The notes beneath the pieces were generated by a model, which worked only from the letters and a program-made list of their open reading frames with translations, did not search any database and was not told the DNA's origin. Positions 1 through 51,831 of a stretch of DNA of 51,831 bases are shown piece by piece (position 1 is the stretch's first letter; each line of letters starts with the position of its first letter). The translations under genes were made by a program, and so were the position numbers. The DNA comes from Actinomycetota bacterium (GTDB lineage Bacteria; Actinomycetota; Thermoleophilia; RBG-16-64-13), in NCBI GenBank assembly GCA_018830645.1, contig JAHJSA010000001.1:1-51831 (forward strand), read 5' to 3'.

Positions 1-1284
1 CGCTAAGGGCCCGTCAGGAAACAAGAGAAAGGAGCAGAGCTCACTTCGTCGAAGAGAGGGGTATGGGCGGCGAAGAGGCAATCGGTGAGCGCTATCGGGC
101 ACTGGCGGGCGAGCTTGACGAGCGCCGTCGACGGTTGTGGGCGGCGGCGGAGGCACGCTCGTACGGGTGGGGCGGGATCGCGGCGGTGGCCCGGGCCTCG
201 GGGATCTCGGAGACGACGGTTCGTGCGGGGTTGCGCGAGCTTGCGGCAGGCGAGACGCTTGCGCCCGGACGGGTTCGCCGCCCGGGCGGTGGTCGCAAGC
301 GGCTCTGCGACAAGGATCCGACGCTCGTCGAGGATCTCGAGCGGCTGGTGGACGCCGACAGCCGGGGCGACCCCGAGCTGCCCTTGCGCTGGACGGCGAA
401 AAGCGTGCGCCGGCTGGCTCAGGCCCTCTGCGGTCTGGGCCATCAGATCAGCCACGAGACGGTGGCGGGGCTCTTGCGCAGCCTGGGCTACAGCCTGCAG
501 GGGAACCGCAAGACCAGGGAGGGCTCAGAGCATCCCGACCGGGACGCGCAGTTTCGTCACCTCAACGGGGTGGTCAAGCAGGCCCTTGACGCGGGCGAGC
601 CGGTGATCTCCGTCGACACGAAGAAGAAGGAGCTGGTCGGAGATTTCAAGGCTGTGGGCCGGGAACTGCGCCCCCAGGGCTCCCCGATCCCGGTGCGCGT
701 GCACGACTTCCGGGACCCCGACTTGGGCAGAGCGATCCCCTACGGCATCTACGACCTCGCCCAGGACGAGGGCTGGGTCTCGGTCGGCGTCGACAACGAC
801 ACCGCCCAGTTCTCGGTCGCCTCCATCCGCGGCTGGTGGGACACGCTCGGCCGTACGCGCTACCCCGACGCCACCACGCTTCAGATCACCGCCGACTGCG
901 GGGGGTCCAACGGCGACCGCACCCGCCTGTGGAAGACCGAGCTGCAGAAGCTGGCCGATGACACCGGCCTTACGGTGACCGTCTGCCACTTCCCGCCCGG
1001 GACCAGCAAGTGGAACAAGATCGAGCACCGTCTGTTCAGCTTCATCACGCAGAACTGGCGCGGCAGGCCTCCGGTCAGCCATGAGGTGATCATCAACCTG
1101 ATCGGAGCGACCACCACCCGCACCGGGTTGGAGGTCTACGCTCAGCTTGACAACCGCCATTACCCCAAGGGTCTGAAGGTCTCAGACGCCGAACTCGCGG
1201 CTGTCAACCTCATTGGCCACGAGTTCCACCCCGACTGGAACTACACCATTATTCCGCGCGTTAAAGAATGACGGGCCCTGAGCG
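1..1284 (+). mobile_element. ISAzo13-family insertion sequence, essentially complete
   Basis: The element is bounded by imperfect inverted repeats. The left end reads CGCTAAGGGCCCGTCA at 1-16, and the reverse complement of 1269-1284 reads CGCTCAGGGCCCGTCA, a 15 of 16 match. The single transposase gene fills the space between, and its TGA stop (1269-1271) lies inside the right repeat. The left repeat starts at base 1, so the true outer edge and any target-site duplication may lie outside the window. The left-end sequence matches the start of a second element at 51566 (about 17 of 22 positions), which supports the boundary. Confidence 0.85.
63..1271 (+). CDS. ISAzo13-family transposase (DDE, Rhodopirellula-type)
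   Basis: This 402-residue protein is the transposase of the surrounding insertion sequence and would cut and join DNA ends. The N-terminal ~150 residues look like a helix-turn-helix region (AVARASGISETTVRAGLREL). The remainder is the DDE domain typical of ISAzo13 transposases. Candidate catalytic acids are the Asp of SVDTKKKE near residue 182, the Asp of TADCGGSNG near residue 279 and the Glu of WNKIEHRLFSF near residue 321. Length and motifs are intact, so it may be active. The ATG start matches the start of the related copy at the right end of the window (AIGERYRALAGELDERRRRL shared). It lies immediately upstream of a decayed kinase gene, which it probably interrupted. Confidence 0.93.
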   Translation: MGGEEAIGERYRALAGELDERRRRLWAAAEARSYGWGGIAAVARASGISETTVRAGLRELAAGETLAPGRVRRPGGGRKRLCDKDPTLVEDLERLVDADSRGDPELPLRWTAKSVRRLAQALCGLGHQISHETVAGLLRSLGYSLQGNRKTREGSEHPDRDAQFRHLNGVVKQALDAGEPVISVDTKKKELVGDFKAVGRELRPQGSPIPVRVHDFRDPDLGRAIPYGIYDLAQDEGWVSVGVDNDTAQFSVASIRGWWDTLGRTRYPDATTLQITADCGGSNGDRTRLWKTELQKLADDTGLTVTVCHFPPGTSKWNKIEHRLFSFITQNWRGRPPVSHEVIINLIGATTTRTGLEVYAQLDNRHYPKGLKVSDAELAAVNLIGHEFHPDWNYTIIPRVKE

Positions 1285-1793
1285 GACGGTCGCCCTCACC
1301 CGGGGGCTCCTCGCCTTCTCCCTTCGTCAGCCCCTTGCGCCTTGCGGCTTTCATCTCGTCCGGCTGACCTCGGACACGGCCGGGCTGCTCAGACGTCTGA
1401 TCGCCGAGGATGTGGAATTCGGCTTCGTCCCGGATTCCTCAGGCGGTCCCATCGTAGCCGAGCAGGGCTACGCCGCACTGGCGGCGGCCACTCCCCAAGA
1501 AGCGCTCGCGCTCCTCTGCGGCGAGGAGGCGCCCCGGTCGACCTCCTGCTCACCGACGTTATCCTGCCCGGCATGAACGGCAGGGAGTTGGTCGGAGACT
1601 GGAGGCGAGGGATCTCGCGCCTCCGAAGACCATCTACGTGTCGGGCTACACCGAAGACGCCATTGTGTACAATGGGCGTCTGGATGCCAGGCTGGCCTTT
1701 CTGGAGAAGCCCCTTACCGGCGATGCGCTCGTGCGCAAAGTCTGGGAGGTGCTGGACGCGGAGCAGGAGGGACAGTGGGGCACGGCCTCATGA
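1285..1793 (+). pseudogene. Remnant of a hybrid sensor histidine kinase (dimerisation helix plus receiver)
   Basis: No intact gene is present, but two conserved stretches remain. The first encodes TRGLLAFSLRQPLAP and GLLRRLIAEDVEF, the segment that follows the phospho-His helix in PAS-type hybrid kinases. The second encodes a receiver domain in pieces: EQGYAALAAATPQEALALL in one frame, VDLLLTDVILPGMNGRELV in the next, then KTIYVSGYTEDAIV and FLEKPLTGDALVRKVWEVL in a third, ending at TGA 1791-1793. At least two frameshifts (near 1530-1540 and near 1600) are needed, and the whole ATPase domain is missing between the two parts. The 5' side is cut by the insertion sequence, so the rest of the gene may lie upstream of the window. 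Confidence 0.8.
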
Positions 1794-1965
1794 AACGGGT
1801 GCCAATGTCCCGTTCGAATTCAGGCCCTTCGTGCTCCGACCCCGCAAAACTCCTGGTGTCGAGCGGGAAGCGAGTTTGAACTTCGCCCGGCAGGGAACCT
1901 GTTCTTCCGACAGTAGGACGGAAGGAGCCGTTCTGGCCACTGGGGAGCACGGGGGGCTTCGAGCT

Positions 1966-4900
1966 ATGGTAGATCGCAGTTCGATGTCCGCACCATCGAA
2001 GTTCGTACCCATACGCACTGTTTTTGCCCTGCTGTACGCGGCAGTGATCCTGATTCTTCTCGCCTTCATCGCGAACGGCATGTGGTTCTCGCGCCAGGTC
2101 GACGGTGTGGGCCACGCCATCGATCTTGCCGGTTCGGAGCGGATGCGTTCCTTCCAGATCGCCTTCCTCATCAACCGCTCCCTTCTGGAGGATGCCCCCC
2201 AGCGGGAGGAGACCCTCGGCCACGTCAAGATGGAGGTGGACCGGTTCGAAGAGATCCTCGACGCCTTGAAGGACGGGAGCCCGAAGTACCATCTGGCCGA
2301 TGTGTCAGGCGAGAAGGTGGACACACAGCTGGCGGAGGTCATGGTCATCTGGAGTGAGGAATTCAAGCCGTTGCTGAACGGGCTCTACATCTCGTCGCCC
2401 GAGAACAGAAAGCAGCTGTTCGAAACGTACAACTCCCGGGTCCACGATTTCGTCGAGAAGGACGTCAACAGGACCGTCGTCCTGCTGACCGAGCAACTGG
2501 ACCACGCCGAGAGGGTCTTCGTCGGATTGCGCTACGTGTTGACTTCTCTCGGCATCATCGTAATCGGGCTGAATCTCTTCTACGTGCGGCGACGGATCCT
2601 GCGACCGATCGGCGTGCTGATGCGGGACACCGAGGAGATCGCCGGCGGCGATTATTCGGTCATAACTCAAGTCCACGCGGCGAACGAGCTTGGGCTCCTC
2701 GGTGAACGGTTCAACGCAATGACCGCCGCGATCGCCGATTCCTTCGGCGGTATGGAAGAAGCCGTTCTGGAACGGACAGGTGAGCTGGAGATGGTCAATC
2801 TGCGGCTGCAGTCGTTCCTCGACAGTGCGCTGGACGCCATCCTGACGATCAAAGCGGAAGATCGGAGCATCCTCGTCTTTAGCCGGGGCGCGGAGAAGAT
2901 GTTCGGCTACAGCGCTGAGGAAGTCCTCGGGAAGAACGTGAACACGCTCATGCCTGAGCCGTATTGCAGCAACCATGAGATGTATGTGGGCAACTACCTT
3001 TCGACGGGGATCAAGAAGGCGATCGGCACGATCAGGGTGGTCAGGGGACGCAAGAAAGACGGCACGGAGTTCGACATCGACCTCTCGGTCAGTGAGAGTG
3101 CCCTCGGCGGTTCTCGCGTGTTCAACGGGATCATTCGGGACATCACGGCTCGGGTGCAGGCGGAGCGGAAGATAGAGGAAAGGAACCGCGAGCTCGAGTT
3201 GCGGTCGCGCTACGACACGGCCTTCGGGAGGGTGATCGGGAACTTCACCTCGACGGTTGACCGGAAGCTCGCTCTGGGCAACACGCTGGTCATCCTGGCG
3301 GACACGCTGCCGTTCCCCTGCTCGGCCTTCTACGTCAACGACGAGTGGGCGGGGAAGCTGGTCTGCGAGGCCGCCTACGGGGTATCCGATTCGTTCCCTC
3401 GGGAGTTCGATCTGAGCGAGGGAGTCATCGGCCAGGCCCTCGCCAACCGCCGGGCCACGACCTTCGAGGAGAGCCACGAGTTCCCGCTTCTGATCGAGAC
3501 CGGCATCCTGACGGTGAAGCCGCGGGCAATCGTGGTCCAGCCGGTCCTGCATCAGGAGAGTGTCATGGGGGTCCTGGTGATCGCCTCGACGGCACCTCTG
3601 AGCGAGTACGACCGAGAGTTCATGGAGAAGCTGGCCGTCAACCTCGGCATCGCACTCCGGAGCCTACGGCAGCACGAGGACCTGCGGGAGCTCTCCGGGC
3701 AGATGAGGATGCGCGGAGATGAGATCGCGCGCAAGAACCGGGAACTCAAGGAGGCGAACCGCCTGAAATCGGAGTTCCTGGCGAATATGTCCCACGAGCT
3801 GAGGACGCCGCTGAACGCGATCATTGGGTTCTCCGAGGTGCTGAAGGACGGCGTCCTGGGAGAGCTGACGAAGGACCAGGAGGAGTACGCGGGTGACATC
3901 TTCACGAGCGGACAGCACCTGCTCTCGCTCATCAACGACATCCTAGACCTCTCGAAGATCGACGCCGGGAAGATGACGCTCGATCTGAACGAGGTGAGCA
4001 TCCCGGAGCTCCTCGAGAGGAGCCTCTCCGTGGTCAAGGAAAAGGCGATGACACGCAACATCAAGCTCGACCTCGACGTCGAGGAGCTGGTCGGCGAGGT
4101 GTTCGGAGACGCGCGCAAGTTGAAGCAGGTCGTCTACAATCTGTTGTCGAATGCTGTGAAATTCACGCCCGACGGCGGCGTGGTGCGCATCGTCGCCCGG
4201 CGGGTGCCGAACTCGGAGCCGAGGGGTGCGGGTGCGGACACGGCCGCCGACCTCTTGGAGATCTCTGTTGCCGACACCGGCATCGGGATGTCCGAGGAAG
4301 GCATGGGGAAGCTCTTCCAGCCCTTCGAGCAGCTCGACGGCTCGCTTTCCCGCAGGTACGAGGGTACGGGGCTCGGTCTCGCCATGGTGAAGCGGCTGGT
4401 TGAGCTCCAGGGGGGGACGGTGGCGGTCGAGAGCGAAGTCGGCGGGGGGGGCAGCACCTTCACGGTTCGGCTCCCGTACCGGGAAGGCCCGTCCGCCGCT
4501 GACGCGACACCACCGGTCCACCGGGTCGAGAGAGAACGGGCCGCCTCCCAGGTGAACCCCGCCGCCGTCGGTAGGCAGCCGTTGATCCTGATCGTAGAAG
4601 ACGACGAGCGGTCCGCCGAACTGATGCGGGTCCAGCTCGAAGCCGAGGGCCACCATACAACCCACGCGTTCTCGGCCGAAGAGGCGCTGGAGCTGGCCGA
4701 GTCGCTGCACCCCGACCTGATCATGCTCGACATCCTGCTGCCGGGGATGGGCGGCTGGACCTTCCTGGAAACCATGAAAGCGCGGCCCGATATCGCCGAC
4801 ACGCCGGTGGTCATCGTGTCCATTGTCGCCGACGAGCAGAAAGGCTTCGCGCTGGGGGCCTCCAGAGTTCTGCGGAAGCCGGTGCGCAATGAGGAGCTCC

Positions 4901-6156
4901 TGGCCGCCGTTCGTGACATCGGGCTCCAAGTCAACGTCGACGACGAGCTTACCCTCCTGGTCGTGGACGACGATCCCAAGGCCGTGGATTTTGTGTCGCG
5001 GAATCTTGCGCGCGAGGGTCACACGGTCCTGCGGGCCTACGGCGGCCAGGAGGGCATTGACACCGCCATCCGGGAGAAGCCCGATCTGATTGTGCTCGAT
5101 CTGATGATGCCGGATGTGACGGGGTTCGACGTCGTGAGCGTGCTCAAGTCGCGGCCGGACACGGCCGGGATCAAGATTATCGTTCTCTCGGCGAAACACG
5201 TCACCGAGGAGGAGCGCGGGCTGCTCAATGGCAGCGTACTGAGGATCGCCCAGAAGAGCGGCTTCAGCGCGGAGGATTTCGTGGTCGAAGCCAAGCGGGC
5301 GCTCGGGAGGGAGACGAAGGAACGGCCGCGGGCGGCCGCGCCGGGCGGAAGGCCGAGGCCGCAGGCACCGAGTGAGGGAGCCCCGCAACCGCCCCTGGTT
5401 CTGGTTGTCGGGGAAAACACCGACGATCGCGACCTGATCCGGCTCTACCTGCAAGGTGAGGGCCATCGCGTGCTCGAGGCGTCCAATGGGCGCGACGCAC
5501 TGGAGATGATGGCCGGGCAGAAACCCGACCTTGTTGCCGTCGACCTGATGATGACCGAGACGGACGGCTTCGCCTTTCTTGCAGAAAAGATCCGCACCCC
5601 CGAGTTCGCCACCATCCCTGTGATTGTGGTATCGGTCGACCCCGAGAGCTCCCAGCTGGGTGCTCTCGGGGTCGACGCCTACTTGAGCAAGCCCATTCGG
5701 AGGCATGACATGCTCAACCTGGTGACGAAGCTGATGAAGAAACCGGCGCGGGCAGGCAGGCCCGTGGTCCTCTTGGTGGACGACGACCCCAAGGCGATCA
5801 AGATCATCTCGTCGTACTTCGAGGACGAGACCTTCGAGGTGCTCAAGGAATACGGCGGCCGTGAAGGCCTGGAGACGGCCCGCGCCCGGAGGCCTGATTT
5901 CATCGTCCTGGACCTGATGATGCCGGAGATGAATGGCTTCCAGGTGCTCGACGAACTCAAGAAGAACGAGGCGACCTGGGAGATCCCGGTGGTGATCCTG
6001 ACGGCCAAGGTGCTCACCAACGAAGAGCGGGATAAGCTGATCTCTGAAGTTGGCGGCATCTTCGAGAAGGGACGCCTGGACAAGGATCTTTTTCTGGAAG
6101 TCGTGAATCGTCTGCTGGGTCCCGGGCGCCTCGCTGCAAGAGTGAGGCTGGGATGA
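1966..6156 (+). CDS. Membrane hybrid histidine kinase: NarX/PilJ-like sensor, HAMP, PAS, GAF, kinase core and four receivers
   Basis: This 1396-residue inner-membrane sensor kinase has TM1 at about 17-40, an extracytoplasmic helical domain opening with a NarX/PilJ-like P-box (AIDLAGSERMRSFQIA), TM2 at about 185-207, HAMP at about 208-260, PAS at about 282-395 and GAF at about 410-570. HisKA follows with phospho-His 610 in SHELRTPLNA, then an HATPase with NLLSNAVKF and GTGLGLAMV boxes. Four receivers follow with phospho-acceptors D922, D1045, D1193 and D1316. Receiver 3 begins VVGEN, so one of the usual acidic pair is lost. ATG 1966 was chosen because the open frame upstream belongs to the decayed kinase; GGGGGG at 1951 could serve as a weak ribosome site. 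Its stop overlaps the next gene as ATGA. The ligand is unknown; P-box similarity suggests an anion such as nitrate only by analogy. Confidence 0.88.
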   Translation: MVDRSSMSAPSKFVPIRTVFALLYAAVILILLAFIANGMWFSRQVDGVGHAIDLAGSERMRSFQIAFLINRSLLEDAPQREETLGHVKMEVDRFEEILDALKDGSPKYHLADVSGEKVDTQLAEVMVIWSEEFKPLLNGLYISSPENRKQLFETYNSRVHDFVEKDVNRTVVLLTEQLDHAERVFVGLRYVLTSLGIIVIGLNLFYVRRRILRPIGVLMRDTEEIAGGDYSVITQVHAANELGLLGERFNAMTAAIADSFGGMEEAVLERTGELEMVNLRLQSFLDSALDAILTIKAEDRSILVFSRGAEKMFGYSAEEVLGKNVNTLMPEPYCSNHEMYVGNYLSTGIKKAIGTIRVVRGRKKDGTEFDIDLSVSESALGGSRVFNGIIRDITARVQAERKIEERNRELELRSRYDTAFGRVIGNFTSTVDRKLALGNTLVILADTLPFPCSAFYVNDEWAGKLVCEAAYGVSDSFPREFDLSEGVIGQALANRRATTFEESHEFPLLIETGILTVKPRAIVVQPVLHQESVMGVLVIASTAPLSEYDREFMEKLAVNLGIALRSLRQHEDLRELSGQMRMRGDEIARKNRELKEANRLKSEFLANMSHELRTPLNAIIGFSEVLKDGVLGELTKDQEEYAGDIFTSGQHLLSLINDILDLSKIDAGKMTLDLNEVSIPELLERSLSVVKEKAMTRNIKLDLDVEELVGEVFGDARKLKQVVYNLLSNAVKFTPDGGVVRIVARRVPNSEPRGAGADTAADLLEISVADTGIGMSEEGMGKLFQPFEQLDGSLSRRYEGTGLGLAMVKRLVELQGGTVAVESEVGGGGSTFTVRLPYREGPSAADATPPVHRVERERAASQVNPAAVGRQPLILIVEDDERSAELMRVQLEAEGHHTTHAFSAEEALELAESLHPDLIMLDILLPGMGGWTFLETMKARPDIADTPVVIVSIVADEQKGFALGASRVLRKPVRNEELLAAVRDIGLQVNVDDELTLLVVDDDPKAVDFVSRNLAREGHTVLRAYGGQEGIDTAIREKPDLIVLDLMMPDVTGFDVVSVLKSRPDTAGIKIIVLSAKHVTEEERGLLNGSVLRIAQKSGFSAEDFVVEAKRALGRETKERPRAAAPGGRPRPQAPSEGAPQPPLVLVVGENTDDRDLIRLYLQGEGHRVLEASNGRDALEMMAGQKPDLVAVDLMMTETDGFAFLAEKIRTPEFATIPVIVVSVDPESSQLGALGVDAYLSKPIRRHDMLNLVTKLMKKPARAGRPVVLLVDDDPKAIKIISSYFEDETFEVLKEYGGREGLETARARRPDFIVLDLMMPEMNGFQVLDELKKNEATWEIPVVILTAKVLTNEERDKLISEVGGIFEKGRLDKDLFLEVVNRLLGPGRLAARVRLG

Positions 6157-6563
6157 AGATCGTGATCATCGAAGACAACCCGACCAACATGAAGCTGGCG
6201 GCCGACGTGCTGAAGCGGTCCGGCTACGAGGTGATCGAGGCCTTCGATGCCGACGCCGGCATCGCCCTGATCCGGCAGCACCTGCCGCCCCTTGTCCTCA
6301 TGGATATCCAGTTGCCGGGTATGGACGGCCTGACCGCCGCCCGGCTCCTGAAGGGAGACGAGAAGACGGCCCATATCAAGATCGTGGCTTTGACCGCCTT
6401 TGCCATGATAGGGGACCGGGAGCGGTTTCTCGAGGCCGGCTGCGACGGCTACGTATCCAAGCCGATCCGGTACAAAGAGCTGCTGGAAACGGTGAGATCG
6501 GCACTCGAGGGGCAGGCCCCCGTGAATGGAGCGCCTTCGCAGAGCGAATCGGAAGGATGGTAG
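6153..6563 (+). CDS. DivK-like single-domain response regulator
   Basis: This 136-residue protein is a stand-alone receiver with no output domain. It keeps the acidic pocket (VIIEDNPTN), the phospho-acceptor Asp in LVLMDIQLPGMDG, the switch Thr in IVALTAFAM and the Lys in GYVSKPIRY. The pattern closely follows DivK and other shuttle receivers that pass phosphate between kinases or act as allosteric partners. Its ATG overlaps the stop codon of the multi-receiver kinase (ATGA), so the two are translationally coupled and are probably made in proportion. A likely role is to accept phosphate from the upstream or downstream histidine kinase. Confidence 0.9.
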   Translation: MKIVIIEDNPTNMKLAADVLKRSGYEVIEAFDADAGIALIRQHLPPLVLMDIQLPGMDGLTAARLLKGDEKTAHIKIVALTAFAMIGDRERFLEAGCDGYVSKPIRYKELLETVRSALEGQAPVNGAPSQSESEGW

Positions 6564-6880
6564 AGAGCAAGGGGCGGGTGCTGGTGGTGGACGACCAGCC
6601 GGACATCCTCCTCCTGGACATCATGATGCCGGATCTGGACGGCTACGAGGTGACCGCCCGGCTCAAGGCCGATCCCGAACTGAAGATCATCCCGATCGTG
6701 CTGCTCACTGACCTCGAGGGCGTCGAAGACAAGGTGAAGGGTCTGAACGCCGGGGCCGATGATTTCCTCTCCAAGCCCGTGAATCAGCCGGAGCTTCTGG
6801 CGCGCATCCGATCGCTGTACGAGGCGAAGCAAGGGGGGCGGAACCGGGTGTGCGTAGCCGGCGCCGTCGCAACGGGATGA
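6557..6880 (+). CDS. Response regulator receiver with an internal deletion
   Basis: This 107-residue protein begins as a normal receiver (GRVLVVDDQPDI) and then jumps directly to LLLDIMMPDLDGYEV. It lacks the roughly 35-40 residues that normally form helix 1, strand 2 and helix 2. The phospho-acceptor Asp, the T of VLLTDLE and the K of FLSKPVN remain. GACATC occurs on both sides of the apparent joint (GACATCCTCCTCCTGGACATC at about 6602-6622), which suggests deletion between short repeats. Such a protein is unlikely to fold as a standard receiver, though the frame is kept and the start overlaps the previous gene. The final residues (GGRNRVCVAGAVATG) are unlike a receiver. It is either a degenerate gene or a specialised fragment. 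Confidence 0.75.
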   Translation: MVESKGRVLVVDDQPDILLLDIMMPDLDGYEVTARLKADPELKIIPIVLLTDLEGVEDKVKGLNAGADDFLSKPVNQPELLARIRSLYEAKQGGRNRVCVAGAVATG

Positions 6881-9800
6881 GCGCCGGCCGTGAACGCCGG
6901 ACTCGGCGGGTGCAGGCCCACGACACGGATGCGTCCCCTAGCGTGGACGCCGGGACGATCCGCGATCTTGCCGCAGTGTTGCAGTCCGTGGGCGCGGCAA
7001 CGGAAGATCTCGACATCAAGGTGATCCTCGAAAGAATTGTGGAGGGCGCGGTCGCGCTTGTCGGTTCGCGGTATGCCGCTTTGGGCGTCCTGGGCCACGG
7101 GGGCGAGTACGACTACTTTGTGCCCGTCGGTATCGAGGTGGCCACCTTCGCCCGGATGAGAGAACGGCACGGTCTTCCTCGAGGAGAGGGCCTCCTTGGG
7201 CATCTCTCGCGGGAGGGTAAGCCGCTCCGGGTGGACGAGATCACCCGACATCCAGCCTCGTGCGGCTTTCCGGAGGGGCACCCGGTCATGACGTCCTTGC
7301 TGGGCGTTCCCGTTCTGTTGCACGATGGGCCCATAGGCAGGCTCTTCTTCTCGGACAAGCTCGATGGGACCCCGTTCACCCAGGAGGATGAAGACCTTGC
7401 CGCCGCTTTCGCCACCATTGCAGCCCTGGGCATCAACAACGCGCGCCGTCTAAAGGGTATCCAGCAGAGAAATGCGGAACTCGAGGCCGTGAGCCGGGTC
7501 GCCGCGGCCACACGCCGGGCGGTCGGCTTGGAAGAAATGCTCCACCAGATCCTGCGGGCGACACTATCGCTCGACCTCTTGGGACTGGAGCACAAGGGGG
7601 CCTTCTTCCTCCGCGACACGGCGGGCGAGAGCCTGCGGCTGGCGGCCTCCCAGAACTTCTCTCCGGGGCAGAAAGAAACCTGCGCTCTGCTCCCGTACGG
7701 GGAATGCCTCTGCGGGATGTGTGCCGTGCAGGAGGAAATCCTCCTCTCTTCCGGCTACCTCGAGGACACTCGGCACACCACGCACTACGAAGGCGTAGAG
7801 GAGCATGGCCACATTGTGCTCCCGCTCAAGGTCCGGGAGCAACTCCTGGGAGTGCTCTGCCTCTACCTCGCGCCCGGCACAACGCTCTCGGACCGTCAGA
7901 TCGGTCTGTGCCGGACGGTTGCCGATATTGCCGCCGTCGCGATCCAGGAAGCGCTCAACCTCGAGAAGATCGAGACACTCGCTTCGTTCCCCGAGGCAGA
8001 CCCCCACCTCGTCCTGGAATGCAGTCCGGGCGGCGCCATTACCTATCTGAACTCCGCGGGCAGGCAGTTGTTGGCCGAAATGGGGCTGGCCGGGCAGACC
8101 TTCGTGCCGCCCGACATAGCCGGGATCGCGCTGGGGATGAAACGGTCAGGCGCGGAACTCTCGTATCTCGAGGTGGAGATCGAGGACCGGACGTTCGGCC
8201 AGTACCTCCATCTCGCGCCGGATCGGGACGCCGTACGAATCTACGCCGTCGACGTAACCGAACGAAAGAAGGCGGAAGCGGCGCTGCGTCGGCATCGTGC
8301 CCAGCTCCTGGCGCTGAACCAGGCATCGACCTTCCTCCTCGACGCGGGGGAGCCTGACGCGACGGAGGACATCTATCACAGGATCAGCAGGGCCGCCCAC
8401 TCCATTCTGGACGTCGCCATGGTCTGGGTCGGCATCGTCGAAGAGGGCAGATTCGAGGTGGAGCCGGTTGCCGTCACCGGCGTCGACGACGGCTATCTTG
8501 ACGGTCTGATCGTCCGCTTCGATGATTCCCCGGAAGGCATGGGGCCGACCGGCATGGCGCTGAAAACGAGACAACCGTGGGTTGCCGATGATATCGAGAA
8601 AGATCCCCGCTTCAACCCCTGGCGGGAGAAGGCGCTCCGTCGCGGGTTCCGGTCTTGTATAGCGGTTCCCCTCCTCTCCGGTGTAGGTGCGCCCGTCGGC
8701 ACCCTGAACCTCTACAGCAGGGAGCCGTATTTCTTCACGGAAGATCAGGTCATGATCGTCCGGGCCTTCGCCCACACGGCAGGCGCAGCAATCGAGAACG
8801 TCCGCCTGATGGCGGGACTGGAGAGGAAAGTGGAGGAGAGGACCCGGGAACTCGAGGATATGACCCTGAAGCTGGTCTCCACGAACCGCGAGCTCGAGAT
8901 GCGCCGGATGGAGGCGGAAGAAGCGCGGGTGATCGCGGAGTCGGCCGGCCGCGCGAAGAGCGAGTTCCTCGCGAACACGTCCCACGAACTGCGGACCCCG
9001 CTGAACGCGATCATCGGTTTCTCCGAGCTGATGTCGGCCGGGGCGGCCGGCGACCTGACCGCGGAGCAGAAGGACTACCTCAAGGACATCAACGACAGCG
9101 GTCGCCTTCTGCTCTCCCTCATCAACGACATTCTCGACCTCAGCAAGGTGGAGGCGGGGATGATGCAGTTGGAGTACACGGAGGTGGATCTGAGGGACCT
9201 CATCGAGTCCAGCCTCATCTTCTTCAGGGAGGAGATGATGAAGCACGACATGGAAATCGAAGTGGAAGTGGAAGAGGCGGTCGGCCTGATCCGGGCAGAT
9301 GACCGGCGTCTTAGGCAGGTCATCACGAATCTGCTGAGCAACGCGGTGAAATTCGCGCCGGCGGGGGGCCGAGTCTCCGTCCGCGCTCGGAGAGTCGAGC
9401 CGGAGGCCGGCGGTGGGTCCGCCGTAGTGGAGGTCGGCGTGGCCGACTCGGGCCCGGGGATCGCACCGCGCGATATCCCGCGCCTTTTCCAGCCCTTTCA
9501 ACAGCTCGACTCGCCGTACGGCAAGAAGAGTCAGGGGACCGGGCTGGGGCTGGCCCTCTGCAGGCGGATCGTCGAACACCACGGTGGCACCATCTGGGTG
9601 GAAAGCGGGGTCGGCGACGTAAACGTTTTCAAGTTTCGTATTCCCGTTGCCGAGACAATGGGGATGGAGGTCATGTTCCAATCGAGCAGTGACTCGTCGG
9701 CTATGCCCATGCGCAAGGAACAACTGCGGGTACACGTGAGGGGGCTTATCTCGTTGCACGTCCGAAAGGGAAAGCCTTTCGGCTTGTTGCGCGTGGAGTC

Positions 9801-10065
9801 GATCGGGGAAGACCCTTCAGCCGATCTGGAGAACCTGCTTGCATCGACGATTCGCGGTCACGACTTGTTCGCGCTGGGAGAGGTCGCGGGGGAGTACTAT
9901 CTGGTCTTTCTGGAGACGGATCGGAACGAACTGGCGGAGACGGGCGCGAGGATCCTGGCACTCCTCGAGGAGAATGGTCTCCCCTGCGCCGTTCGGACCG
10001 CGGTTTTCCCCGAAGATGGCAAGACTCCCGAGGGATTGCTGGCCGAACTGGACGATAGAACCTGA
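6877..10065 (+). CDS. Soluble multi-GAF sensor histidine kinase with GGDEF-like C-terminal tail
   Basis: This 1062-residue protein has no membrane segment. It has GAF domains at about 25-185 and 205-370, a PAS-like segment at about 370-470, a third GAF at about 485-650, a coiled coil, HisKA with phospho-His 703 (SHELRTPLNA) and an HATPase with NLLSNAVKF and GTGLGLALC boxes. The second GAF carries C269-x7-C277-x-C279-x2-C282, which could bind a metal or Fe-S cluster. After the kinase, about 110 residues resemble a GGDEF fold (GLLRVESI, ALGEVAGEYYLVF, TAVFPEDGKTPEGLL) without the GGDEF signature, so cyclase activity is not expected. ATG 6877 overlaps the previous stop (ATGA); GTG 6850 is an alternative. 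It probably works with the neighbouring receivers and HD-GYP protein. Confidence 0.88.
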   Translation: MSAGRERRTRRVQAHDTDASPSVDAGTIRDLAAVLQSVGAATEDLDIKVILERIVEGAVALVGSRYAALGVLGHGGEYDYFVPVGIEVATFARMRERHGLPRGEGLLGHLSREGKPLRVDEITRHPASCGFPEGHPVMTSLLGVPVLLHDGPIGRLFFSDKLDGTPFTQEDEDLAAAFATIAALGINNARRLKGIQQRNAELEAVSRVAAATRRAVGLEEMLHQILRATLSLDLLGLEHKGAFFLRDTAGESLRLAASQNFSPGQKETCALLPYGECLCGMCAVQEEILLSSGYLEDTRHTTHYEGVEEHGHIVLPLKVREQLLGVLCLYLAPGTTLSDRQIGLCRTVADIAAVAIQEALNLEKIETLASFPEADPHLVLECSPGGAITYLNSAGRQLLAEMGLAGQTFVPPDIAGIALGMKRSGAELSYLEVEIEDRTFGQYLHLAPDRDAVRIYAVDVTERKKAEAALRRHRAQLLALNQASTFLLDAGEPDATEDIYHRISRAAHSILDVAMVWVGIVEEGRFEVEPVAVTGVDDGYLDGLIVRFDDSPEGMGPTGMALKTRQPWVADDIEKDPRFNPWREKALRRGFRSCIAVPLLSGVGAPVGTLNLYSREPYFFTEDQVMIVRAFAHTAGAAIENVRLMAGLERKVEERTRELEDMTLKLVSTNRELEMRRMEAEEARVIAESAGRAKSEFLANTSHELRTPLNAIIGFSELMSAGAAGDLTAEQKDYLKDINDSGRLLLSLINDILDLSKVEAGMMQLEYTEVDLRDLIESSLIFFREEMMKHDMEIEVEVEEAVGLIRADDRRLRQVITNLLSNAVKFAPAGGRVSVRARRVEPEAGGGSAVVEVGVADSGPGIAPRDIPRLFQPFQQLDSPYGKKSQGTGLGLALCRRIVEHHGGTIWVESGVGDVNVFKFRIPVAETMGMEVMFQSSSDSSAMPMRKEQLRVHVRGLISLHVRKGKPFGLLRVESIGEDPSADLENLLASTIRGHDLFALGEVAGEYYLVFLETDRNELAETGARILALLEENGLPCAVRTAVFPEDGKTPEGLLAELDDRT

Positions 10066-10078
10066 GGAGGAGTGACCG

Positions 10079-11248
10079 TTGAGCTTGGAGCAGAGTTCTG
10101 GAGAAAGAGCGACAGTCCTCATCGTTGACGACGGGGAACTCAACAGGAAGCTCCTCGACCGCCTCTGCCTCAGCCTGGGATACGACACGCTCGTGGCTCA
10201 GAACGGTGCGGAGGCCGTAGAGCAGGCGAGACTCCGCCATCCCGACGTCATTCTCATGGATATCATGATGCCGGAGATGAACGGCTTCGATGCCACGGCG
10301 GCCCTCAAAGAAGATCCGCTCACCAGGCCCATCCCCGTCATCATGGTAACGGGACTTGACTCTCGCGCGGACATGCTGGAGGGGATTTCCAGAGGCGCCA
10401 GCGATTTTCTGACCAAACCATTCGATGCTGAGGAGCTGACCATGCGGCTCAAGAACAGCATCGAGATCAAGAAATACCATGATCTCATCAGGAGCTACTC
10501 CGATACGCTCGAGAGACAGGTCGCAGAGAGGACTCAGGAGCTGAGAAGTGCGTTCGCCGACCTGGAGGTCTCTCATCAGCAGATCCGATCCGGGTATGTC
10601 GAAACGATCTTCCGGCTGAGTCTGGCTGCTGAGTACAAGGACGATGAGACCGGGTCGCACATCAGGCGCGTGAGCTACTACACCAGCACGCTCGCCGAGC
10701 AGTTGGGGATGGACGAGGATTTCATGACCACAGTCTTCTTCGCGTCGGCGATGCACGACATCGGGAAGGTGGGGATTCCGGACAGAATCCTCTTGAAGGC
10801 CGGGGGGCTGTCCCCGGAGGAGTGGGTGGTCATGAAGACCCACGCCACGATAGGACACAAGATCCTCCAGGGGTCTGAGTCGCTCTACCTGATCATGGCC
10901 GAGGATATCGCTTTGTGTCACCATGAGCGCTGGGACGGGAGCGGCTACCCGCGAGGACTCAAAGCGGAGGAGATCCCGCCGCCGGCGAGGATCATGAACA
11001 TCGTCGACCAGTATGATGCGCTCCGGAGCGAGCGGCCGTACAAGCCTGCGCTGGACCACGAGGTCGTTGTCGACATCATCACCAAGGGTGACGGAAGGAC
11101 CATGCCCGAGCACTTCGACCCGGAGATTCTCGAGGCCTTCAAGCAGACTGCGGCCACCTTCCGGGAAATCTACGAGGCGCATGGCGATGACCGGCCATCC
11201 GCCCTCACCGGCTCGTCTCTTTGGAGTCCCGGGAGCATGGCGGGGTAG
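10079..11248 (+). CDS. Response regulator with HD-GYP phosphodiesterase output
   Basis: This 389-residue protein joins a receiver ([10 protein letters not shown], phospho-acceptor D61 in [13 protein letters not shown], Lys in FLTKPF) through a coiled coil to an HD-GYP domain. The HD pair is at about H226-D227 ([10 protein letters not shown]) and the second signature [18 protein letters not shown] is complete, so hydrolysis of cyclic di-GMP is expected. The architecture matches RpfG-type regulators. TTG 10079 is used because GAGGAGGAG lies 7-15 bases upstream and the frame opens directly into the receiver. It is the only output protein of the five-gene signalling cluster, so kinase input most likely ends in lowering or sensing cyclic di-GMP. 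The last ~20 residues are unlike the family. Confidence 0.92.
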
Positions 11249-11623
11249 CAAGGGTTGAGGCTGTTCCATAGAATCTGACGTCTGACAACGGGCGATGCGC
11301 GGCCTCTGCCGCATGACGGCCGCACGACCATGCAGGAATCGCAAAATGCCGGGCGGCTCATGAGGCGCCACGAGAGGCGAGGAGATGGAGACTTCTCGCC
11401 CTAAACCGGCAGGAAAGACTGTGCGCCACCGGCCAGGAGAGAGCACCACGAATCACAAGAAGAAAGCCGGCGGACCGACTCAAGCACCGTTGGGCTAACA
11501 CCCGTGGGGGTTCGACTCCCCTCTCCGGCCTCTTGGGCAGTCGCGTTACTCGGTTTTCGCCGCGCGTTCCGCGGGTACGTGATAGCCCTTGACATACCGA
11601 TTCGCGATCGGACGGGGGACACC
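11249..11623. other. Gene-free stretch between the signalling cluster and cytochrome gene
   Basis: About 375 bases hold no convincing coding region; the short open frames here are overlapping and have no family resemblance. The one recognisable element is the tRNA-Leu 3' fragment at 11479-11529. A segment at 11431-11440 (GGCCAGGAGA) can pair with the end of that fragment (CTCTCCGGCC), with one bulged A, but no D-arm lies between. I see no clear promoter for the cytochrome gene: TTGACA occurs at 11589-11594 without a matching -10 box. Confidence 0.6.
11479..11529 (+). other. 3' half of a tRNA-Leu, probable attachment-site remnant
   Basis: The segment reads as a tRNA from the anticodon loop to the acceptor stem: loop CTCAAGC (anticodon CAA), 3' anticodon strand ACCGT, a class-II variable arm TGGGCTAACACCC, a T-arm of GGGGG-TTCGACT-CCCCT and acceptor strand CTCCGGC. 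The 5' half (acceptor GCCGGAG, D-arm, anticodon 5' strand) is absent. Bases before the loop (ACCGA) do not pair with ACCGT. Tyrosine recombinases often integrate into tRNA genes with crossover at the anticodon loop, leaving such a 3' copy at the far end of the element. By orientation, the intact tRNA should lie upstream of the window. The base after the acceptor strand is C rather than the A expected for leucine tRNAs, so some drift is likely. Confidence 0.72.
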
Positions 11624-12010
11624 ATGAGGAATCGGATGGGGTACGCATTCGTGTGCGCGTCGCTGGTCGCCGGATCCGCTTTTCTTGCGGGATGCGGGGG
11701 CTCGGACACCGTCAGCACTCTGCCTCTCCCCACGACCATATCGACCGTCGCTCCCACCGATACCACTACCGGGGGAGACGGAGCCTCGGCCGGTGATGTG
11801 GTCTTCGCTTCGACATGCGCAGGCTGCCACGGCGTGGACGGCACCGGGGCTTCGGGGCCGGATCTGACCGTGCTCACCACGCTCACCAAAGACCGCGTCG
11901 TCGACCAGGTGACGAACGGCGGCTCTCGCATGCCCGAATACGGGAGCAAGCTCTCACCGGCCGAGATCGACGCGGTCGCCGAGTACGTGCTCGGCTCGAT
12001 CGTGCAGTAG
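11624..12010 (+). CDS. Lipoprotein c-type cytochrome, monoheme
   Basis: The 128-residue product starts with a lipoprotein signal peptide (MRNRMGYAFVCASLVAGSAF) ending in the lipobox LAGC, so it should be anchored outside the cytoplasmic membrane. A Thr/Ser-rich linker follows, then a class I cytochrome c domain with heme motif CAGCH and a likely Met ligand in RMPEYG. It should carry one covalent heme and shuttle electrons in a respiratory chain. The ATG at 11624 follows GGGGGAC at a suitable distance; the longer open frame back to 11504 would run through the tRNA fragment. It is the first gene beyond the apparent island end and stands alone. Its partner is not evident. Confidence 0.9.
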   Translation: MRNRMGYAFVCASLVAGSAFLAGCGGSDTVSTLPLPTTISTVAPTDTTTGGDGASAGDVVFASTCAGCHGVDGTGASGPDLTVLTTLTKDRVVDQVTNGGSRMPEYGSKLSPAEIDAVAEYVLGSIVQ

Positions 12011-12059: not shown

Positions 12060-12151
12060 TTAGAGTGGGCGGTCTGGGACATCGTGTATCTGACGGGTCG
12101 AACGCCGAGGCTGTTCACATCCTCGTGCCGACCCTCCGATCGTGACCGGCT

Positions 12152-12180
12152 TGACCGGAGGGCCCCAGGCTTGCTATAGG
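12152..12180 (+). promoter_or_regulatory. Probable sigma-70-type promoter for the RCC1 surface protein
   Basis: TTGACC at 12152-12157 and CTATAG at 12175-12180 are spaced by 17 bases, and the -10 box is preceded by TTG. It lies about 90 bases upstream of the surface-protein start. The transcribed leader contains GGCCTTCCTCCCCTCGGGAGGCC, which can fold into a hairpin ahead of the AGGAG ribosome site. Confidence 0.55.
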
Positions 12181-12270
12181 TGTAGGGAGTCGCGCGCGGT
12201 TCACGGCGCTGCGCTTTCATGGGCCTTCCTCCCCTCGGGAGGCCGAGAGCCGACGAGAGGAGCCCTCGAG

Positions 12271-14361
12271 ATGCAGTCGCGCCTTCTGTGCCTCCTGACC
12301 CGAAGTGCCTCCAAGGCCGCGCTCTTGGCCGCCGTCTTGGTCGCCCTGATCGCTCTGCCCCAGCTCGTCGCGGGTACTCCCGCGCTCGCAGCCGAAGGCC
12401 CCACGTACCGAGCCATCACCGGCACCGACCGCTACGCGACCGCCATCATGGTCTCCAAGAAGGCCTATCCCCTGGGGGCCCCGGTGGTGTGCGTGGTGAA
12501 GGGCGACGACTTCCCCGACGCTCTGGCCGCCGCACCACTCGCTTTCGCGCAGGGGGGGCCGGTCATCCTGACCCCTTCCTCGGGTCTGACCGAGGCCGTG
12601 CGGATCGAGCTCGGCCGTCTCGGGGCGACTACCGTGTACTTCATCGGTCTACCGGAGCGCATCAAGAAGCAGGTGCAGGACGCGCTGCCCGGGGCCACGA
12701 TACGCCGGTTCGTGGGGACCGATCGCTACCACACGGCTACTCTTCTAGCCGGAGAACTCGAGACCGTCGTCGGGTCCTTAGACCACGTCGTGTTGGCGCC
12801 TGGAGACAAGTTCCCCGACGCTCTCTCCGTGGCGCCCTTGGCGGCAAGCAAGGGCTGGGCCATCCTGCTCACGCCGCAGAGTGGTCCGCTTCCCGAGGTG
12901 ACCGCCTCGATGATCCAATCGCTGGGAGCTACCAAGGCCCTCGTGGTGGGCACCTACGCAAGCCCGCCTGCGTCCGTGGGAGAATTCACGCGGAAGGTCG
13001 GGACGGATCGCTACCACACCAGCGCCCTCGTCGCCGAGTACGCGGGGAGCCAGGGCCTCTCCTTCGGCCATGTGGCCCTGGCGACCGGCGAGAACTACCC
13101 CGATGCTCTTGTCGTGGGCCCCTATCTGGCGCAGGACGGGGGGATCCTGCTCCTGACTCAGCCGGCCACGCTGCCGAACGCGATCGCGAAGACTCTCACC
13201 ACCCGCAAGGCCGACATCACGCGCATCGATCTTGTCGGGCTTCCCGCCGCTCTCGAGGGAGTGGTGCGCGGGCTGTTCGCCCCGGCCTCGCTCACCTGGA
13301 GTGCGATACAAGGTGGATCGCGGCACACGCTGGCCTTGCGGGGTGACGGTTCGATGTGGGCCTGGGGCAACAACGGCAGCGGCAGGCTCGGAGACGGCAC
13401 CACCACCTCTCGGAAGACGCCGAGGCGTATCGGCTTCGACACCGACTGGAAGGCGCTCGGAGCAGGCGAAGCCCACTCGCTCGCGATCAAGACCGACGGC
13501 TCGCTGTGGGCCTGGGGCAGCAACGGCAGCGGCCGGCTCGGAGACGGCACCACCACCACCCGGAAGACGCCGACCCGCATCGGTGCGGCCACCGATTGGG
13601 TCGCGGTCTCCGCCGGCAAGGAACACTCATTGGGGTTGAAGACCGACGGCTCGCTGTGGGCCTGGGGCGCCAACTGGTACGGGCAGTTCGGCAACGGGAG
13701 CGCCGCCGGGAGTCTGGTTCCAGTACGTGTGGGATCGCTCAACGACTGGGTACTCGTGGACGCCGGTGCCGAACGCTCGCTCGGGGTGAGGGCGGACGGC
13801 TCCCTGTGGGCCTGGGGGAGGAACTACATGGGCGTCCTTGGGGACGGCACCTCGTTCGACCAACTCCTTCCTTCTCGCGTCGGCTTCACGATCGGCTGGT
13901 CGGCGGCCGCAGCGGGCGCTCATCACACGCTGGGTCTGAGGAGCGACGGCTCCGTCTATGGCTGGGGCCTCAACTGGTACGGCGAGGTCGGCGACGGCAC
14001 CGGCGGAGCCGAATCTGAGCGACTCACGCCGGTGCGTGTGGGTTCCGCGACGAACTGGGTGATGGTCGCAGCCGGCAGCGGGCACTCCGTGGGTCTCAGG
14101 TCCGACGGCTCTATCTGGGGATGGGGCATCAACTGGTACGGGCAGTTGGGCAATGGGTCCAACGTCGACCGCTCCTCACCGGTCCAGATGGGAGCGGGCA
14201 AGGACTGGGTGGCGGTGAGCGCGGGCGAGTCGCACACGCTCGGCCTCAAGCGCGACGGCACCCTGTGGGCGTGGGGACGCAACTTCGAAGGCCAGCTCGG
14301 CGACGGCACGAACACCCACCGGTGGACGCCGGTGAAGATCGAGGCGTCGCCCACCGGCTAG
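12271..14361 (+). CDS. Secreted surface protein: three cell-wall-binding repeats plus seven RCC1 repeats
   Basis: This 696-residue protein has a signal peptide with a hydrophobic core (AALLAAVLVALIALPQLV) and a likely cut after ALA. Three CW_binding_2 repeats follow, each opening with a GTDRY motif (TGTDRYATA, VGTDRYHTA, VGTDRYHTS), a family that attaches proteins non-covalently to the cell wall. The C-terminal ~360 residues contain seven RCC1 repeats of about 50 residues, each with the pattern G-x-x-HSLGL-x-x-DGSLWAWG-x-N-x-x-G-x-LGDG. Seven is the full count for a closed seven-blade propeller. ATG 12271 follows GAGAGGAG and gives a clean signal peptide, so it is preferred over the upstream in-frame start at 12142. 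The likely role is surface binding or adhesion; the ligand is unknown. Confidence 0.92.
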   Translation: MQSRLLCLLTRSASKAALLAAVLVALIALPQLVAGTPALAAEGPTYRAITGTDRYATAIMVSKKAYPLGAPVVCVVKGDDFPDALAAAPLAFAQGGPVILTPSSGLTEAVRIELGRLGATTVYFIGLPERIKKQVQDALPGATIRRFVGTDRYHTATLLAGELETVVGSLDHVVLAPGDKFPDALSVAPLAASKGWAILLTPQSGPLPEVTASMIQSLGATKALVVGTYASPPASVGEFTRKVGTDRYHTSALVAEYAGSQGLSFGHVALATGENYPDALVVGPYLAQDGGILLLTQPATLPNAIAKTLTTRKADITRIDLVGLPAALEGVVRGLFAPASLTWSAIQGGSRHTLALRGDGSMWAWGNNGSGRLGDGTTTSRKTPRRIGFDTDWKALGAGEAHSLAIKTDGSLWAWGSNGSGRLGDGTTTTRKTPTRIGAATDWVAVSAGKEHSLGLKTDGSLWAWGANWYGQFGNGSAAGSLVPVRVGSLNDWVLVDAGAERSLGVRADGSLWAWGRNYMGVLGDGTSFDQLLPSRVGFTIGWSAAAAGAHHTLGLRSDGSVYGWGLNWYGEVGDGTGGAESERLTPVRVGSATNWVMVAAGSGHSVGLRSDGSIWGWGINWYGQLGNGSNVDRSSPVQMGAGKDWVAVSAGESHTLGLKRDGTLWAWGRNFEGQLGDGTNTHRWTPVKIEASPTG

Positions 14362-51565: not shown

Positions 51566-51831
51566 TTAGGAACCGTCAAGAAAAAAGTAGGATATAGGCT
51601 GGGGGTGGCGAAGTAGTGTCCCATGATCGACGAACAGGCCATAGGAGAGCGTTACCGGGCGCTGGCGGGAGAGCTCGATGAGAGGCGTCGGCGCCTCTGG
51701 GCGGCGGCGGAGGCGCGGGTGTGCGGGCGTGGCGGGATCGCCGCCGGGGCGCGGGCCACGGGGATCTCGGTGGGCACCATCACGCGCGGCCTCGCCGACC
51801 TCGACTCTCCCGTGCGCTTCTCCTGCGACCG
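51566..51831 (+). mobile_element. Left end of a second ISAzo13-family element, cut by the window
   Basis: The sequence TTAGGAACCGTCAAGAAAAAAG at 51566-51587 matches the left end of the first element (about 17 of 22 bases). The transposase start lies 57 bases in. The right end is beyond the window. It has the same orientation as the element at the left end. Confidence 0.75.
51623..51831 (+). CDS. ISAzo13-family transposase, N-terminal part
   Basis: The partial 69-residue product begins MIDEQAIGERYRALAGEL and shares the stretch GERYRALAGELDERRRRLWA with the transposase at 63-1271. Later residues differ more (ARVCGRGGIAAGARATGISVGTI), so the two copies are related but separate elements rather than a recent duplication. 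The DDE domain lies outside the window. Confidence 0.85.
   Translation, partial: MIDEQAIGERYRALAGELDERRRRLWAAAEARVCGRGGIAAGARATGISVGTITRGLADLDSPVRFSCD

Follow-up and report, generated by a model that had tools for sequence, protein, structure and literature searches.

The half tRNA gene at positions 11479 to 11535 of the window (the whole stretch of DNA analysed, which is one entire contig, C59, of 51,831 bases in a draft genome of 112 contigs and 3.87 Mb) is almost certainly an attR scar, left where a mobile element entered a tRNA-Leu(UAA) gene by means of a tyrosine integrase and later decayed, stranding an island with a two-component/HD-GYP cluster. An earlier note on this DNA had recognized here the attachment-site pattern of tyrosine recombinases and the end of an integrated island. 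Our analysis supports this reading through an intact tRNA gene, an integrase remnant, a direct repeat, an unoccupied site in a relative (G001) and a related element in another genome (G010).

The scar is the following feature:

11479..11535, + strand: attR, the displaced 3' part of tRNA-Leu(UAA), running from the anticodon loop to the discriminator plus TCTTG; its 57 bases are 95% identical to the intact gene on contig C105 of this genome (G000), and 53/55 bases match the gene of G001

The match to the intact tRNA-Leu gene has an E-value of 6e-19 with the complete 3.87-Mb genome searched, and thus it is not due to chance. The first base of the fragment is also the first of the anticodon loop (CTCAAGC, 11479-11485), its tRNA part stops at 11529/11530, and identity to the intact copy continues to 11535 (TCTTG), five bases past the discriminator. 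It is a 3' end piece of the gene, not an internal one, and the 5' half is missing. A tRNA-Leu 3' half devoid of its 5' half had already been reported at 11479-11529, and the match to the intact gene confirms it, the coordinates being good to within a few bases. ARAGORN called no tRNA in the window, as expected for half a gene, and Rfam gave no match there at the gathering cut-off.

The intact counterpart was found on another contig:

G000:C105:1915-2001, - strand: intact tRNA-Leu(UAA), called by ARAGORN and matching the fragment

This gene faces the near end of its contig at a distance below 2 kb. When reverse-complemented, C105:1-141 is exactly C59:1-141, and this 141-bp end overlap is unique, with a 100% match in no other contig of the genome. 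De Bruijn assemblers leave exact end overlaps of this kind where an edge is broken. Judging from these end sequences C105 and C59 very probably abut in the genome, the join being computed from contig ends with no single contig spanning the junction; the unoccupied site in G001 provides independent support for it. The contig break falls inside an ISAZ013-family insertion sequence, and the same genome holds many other partial copies of this type. The right end of the window (51628-51805) likewise breaks in an ISAZ013-type transposase, and many contigs of this genome terminate in such copies.

Given the overlap, the intact gene and its cognate fragment share one replicon, where they form direct repeats in the same orientation, the fragment lying downstream at a distance of 13.3 kb. 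The earlier note had proposed looking for an integrase beside an intact tRNA-Leu that shares the 3' half; both were found on the abutting contig, the integrase being represented by a C-terminal remnant only. That an island lies to the left of the fragment also holds, but the 11.5 kb within the window are only part of its full length.

After the join, the order is intact tRNA, integrase remnant, a piece of an IS21 istB gene, an ISAZ013-type insertion sequence, a five-gene two-component/HD-GYP block, the tRNA fragment and then core genes. The annotated features of the island are:

C105:1560-1832, reading towards the tRNA: integrase C-terminus, last 90 residues (PF00589, Phage_integrase, E 8e-8; PHROG 1, E 7.5e-16)

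1..1291, + strand: ISAZ013-family insertion sequence inside the island, with the transposase at 63-1271 (Pfam DDE_Tnp_ISAZ013, E 8e-140) and the contig break within it

1342..6156, + strand: cargo, hybrid histidine kinase of ~1600 aa (Pfam: PilJ, HAMP, PAS, GAF, HisKA, HATPase and four receiver domains)

6153..6563, + strand: cargo, stand-alone response regulator (Pfam Response_reg)

6557..6880, + strand: cargo, second receiver-domain ORF (Pfam Response_reg, profile match from position 40)

6850..10065, + strand: cargo, GAF histidine kinase of 1071 aa (Pfam)

10079..11248, + strand: cargo, response regulator with HD-GYP domain (Pfam Response_reg and HD_5)

A complete integrase is absent from the island: the ORF beside the tRNA is the 90-residue remnant, and istB sequence, itself only part of a gene, lies upstream of it on C105. 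Since most of the integrase is lost, self-excision of the island is unlikely. Elsewhere in the genome, close to a different tRNA, a second integrase-like sequence (L012, G000:C108:26156-29228) is 40% identical to the remnant. The terminal inverted repeat of the ISAZ013 element is imperfect (16/20, near positions -6..13 and 1272-1291). Because its profile match begins at position 40, the second receiver-domain ORF may be N-terminally incomplete or may start upstream.

As for the cargo, the N-terminal part of the ~1600-aa kinase, used as query against 17 relatives, gave weak and partial matches only. No orthologue of the 1071-aa kinase was found among 30 relatives, the best matches (~42%) covering the kinase core only, and full-length relatives of the HD-GYP regulator elsewhere are only ~40% identical, a usual level for domains this common. 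Among named genomes the scan found no useful relative, the one match being a weak one to a Streptomyces kinase. The G+C content of the island is 63.5%, vs. 66.4% in the right flank and 67.8% in the left.

The comparison set contains one further genome of the genus, G001, and in it the site is unoccupied: ppx, tRNA-Leu(UAA) and a cytochrome c gene are consecutive. Its left side is collinear with C105 and its right side with the window from position 11549 onward (75-89% nucleotide identity). The first core gene to the right of the island is:

11624..12010, + strand: small c-type cytochrome lipoprotein, 81% identical in G001, where it is the gene that follows tRNA-Leu(UAA)

Within the island, blastn returned no nucleotide match to G001, and the big island kinases have no orthologue there. 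The tblastx matches of the island to 8 kb of G001 were discarded as homology, as they were scattered pieces, 15-86 residues long, whose E-values had been summed, where blastn gave none. The distance from the tRNA to the conserved flank is ~130 bases in G001 vs. 15 after the fragment in the window, indicating that the intergenic spacer changed in one lineage and that the unoccupied site is not base-exact. A relative free of the left-side genes, which had been suggested as a test, is therefore at hand in G001, having the site without the island and without those kinases. The earlier note had likewise placed accessory genes with an insertion sequence on the left and core genes on the right. To the right of the cytochrome gene, internal repeats at 12142-14361 give several off-diagonal matches of 65-77% to the G001 copy.

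The relatives G010, G015 and G006 also contain tRNA-Leu(UAA) fragments, which begin at the same anticodon-loop base as in the window. In G010 a perfect 50/50-base repeat 9 kb downstream encloses a complete 9-kb element (C5:55727-64869), whose 442-aa integrase is 70% identical to the remnant over the shared part, and which also encodes a DUF3987 helicase/primase and a terminase small subunit. The seven ORFs scanned at this locus (L095, G010:C5:55500-66500) included no capsid gene, and no signalling gene was recognized in the element. The arm next to the crossover could be compared as well:

11437..11478, + strand: presumed attP arm beside the crossover, with CACGA-type repeats (CACCACGAATCACAAGAAGAAAGCCGGCGGACC), 28/42 bases in register with the same-side G010 arm

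This attR-side agreement is ungapped and was reached by none of 20,000 random 42-mers of the window; the same comparison with G015 gave nothing above chance. In G008 and G014 integrase sequence adjoins tRNA-Leu(UAA) too. The motif GATTTGCAGG or TTTGCAGG stands just 3' of the gene at loci L041, L043, L045, L049, L051 and L052, whether or not an integrase is visible, and may represent a conserved arm site of the integrase or a trace left by former islands. Taken as a whole, the evidence suggests that tRNA-Leu(UAA) has been used repeatedly for integration, as a hotspot, in this little-studied bacterial family.

An appreciable, if minority, possibility is a two-step history, in which an integrase element made the scar and the two-component block entered later through IS-mediated or homologous recombination, never having been borne by the element. 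It would agree with the gene content of the complete G010 element, a replication and packaging set with no recognized signalling gene, and with the IS21 and ISAZ013 pieces that lie between the integrase remnant and the signalling block. Genes of the two-component type are widespread, and the kinases may have joined the island only after the first integration. However, the attP-like arm comes immediately after the HD-GYP gene, which places the block within the two ends of the element.

The sequence of the anticodon loop bears on two further readings. Two loop bases differ between the fragment (TCAAG) and the parent gene (TTAAA), and these differences may be later mutations or attP sequence. They would also be in line with a decayed tRNA duplicate unrelated to integration, but such a pseudogene is highly improbable, as an integrase remnant adjoins the intact gene, the break position is identical in three other genomes, and both the unoccupied G001 site and the shared element arm contradict it. 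The loop reads CTCAAGC, from which anticodon CAA had earlier been assigned; the parent is tRNA-Leu(UAA) according to the ARAGORN call of the C105 gene. We give hardly any credence to an origin from tRNA-Leu(CAA): the remainder of the fragment aligns with the UAA gene and not with the true CAA gene of this genome on C11, which matches the parent gene poorly (54.5 bits vs. 192 for the self-match). Equally hard to credit is an anticodon swap brought about by the incoming element, which was rejected since all family relatives with a complete gene at the ppx-linked site, including the genus relative, carry UAA.

We favor integration into tRNA-Leu(UAA) followed by decay. A tyrosine integrase would have joined attP to attB by a crossover in the anticodon loop, and attP would have brought its own copy of the tRNA 3' half, so that a working gene was rebuilt at attL and the original 3' half was displaced downstream to become the fragment of the window. 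The fragment and the G001 tRNA-Leu(UAA) do not differ between anticodon stem and discriminator, while the rebuilt C105 gene has an extra C in the variable arm; this pattern would be expected if the chromosome's own 3' half became the fragment and the element supplied the 3' half of the rebuilt gene. The integrase and neighboring genes would later have been destroyed, apparently by the insertion sequences (IS21, ISAZ013), with the stranded signalling island as the outcome. In this scheme, we infer the exact crossover base, the order of the IS insertions and the arrival of the signalling genes with the element.

The analysis fixes the ends of the island and links two contigs of the draft genome; general ideas on how such islands work are unchanged by it. 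It is conceivable, but rather unlikely, that a family of satellite-like elements specific for the anticodon loop of tRNA-Leu(UAA) occurs repeatedly in this bacterial family and that large sensor-kinase clusters accumulate in its abandoned shells, which would act as landing places.

Among known systems, the Islander collection lists 2083 islands with anticodon-centred sites, the anticodon loop being one standard class of break position (PMC4383910). The present island resembles Islander tDNA islands of the anticodon-centred attP type (A) in its intact tRNA, the displaced same-orientation 3' fragment downstream, the integrase sequence between the repeats, the anticodon-loop crossover and a length within 2-200 kb (here 13.3 kb). 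It differs from them in having an integrase reduced to 90 residues and an interior broken by insertion sequences. To the 9-kb satellite-like element of G010 it is similar in target gene, break position, integrase (70%) and alignable attachment-site arm. That element, however, keeps its integrase together with replication and packaging genes and shows no signalling cluster; in the window's island only the ends of that type are seen. From the set typical of phage satellites (PICI-like: integrase, primase and packaging gene, no capsid), only the integrase remnant was seen in it. The window's island belongs to a known kind and has an ordinary, well-understood arrangement: a tDNA genomic island, now decayed, whose crossover lies in the anticodon loop at a hotspot of the family.
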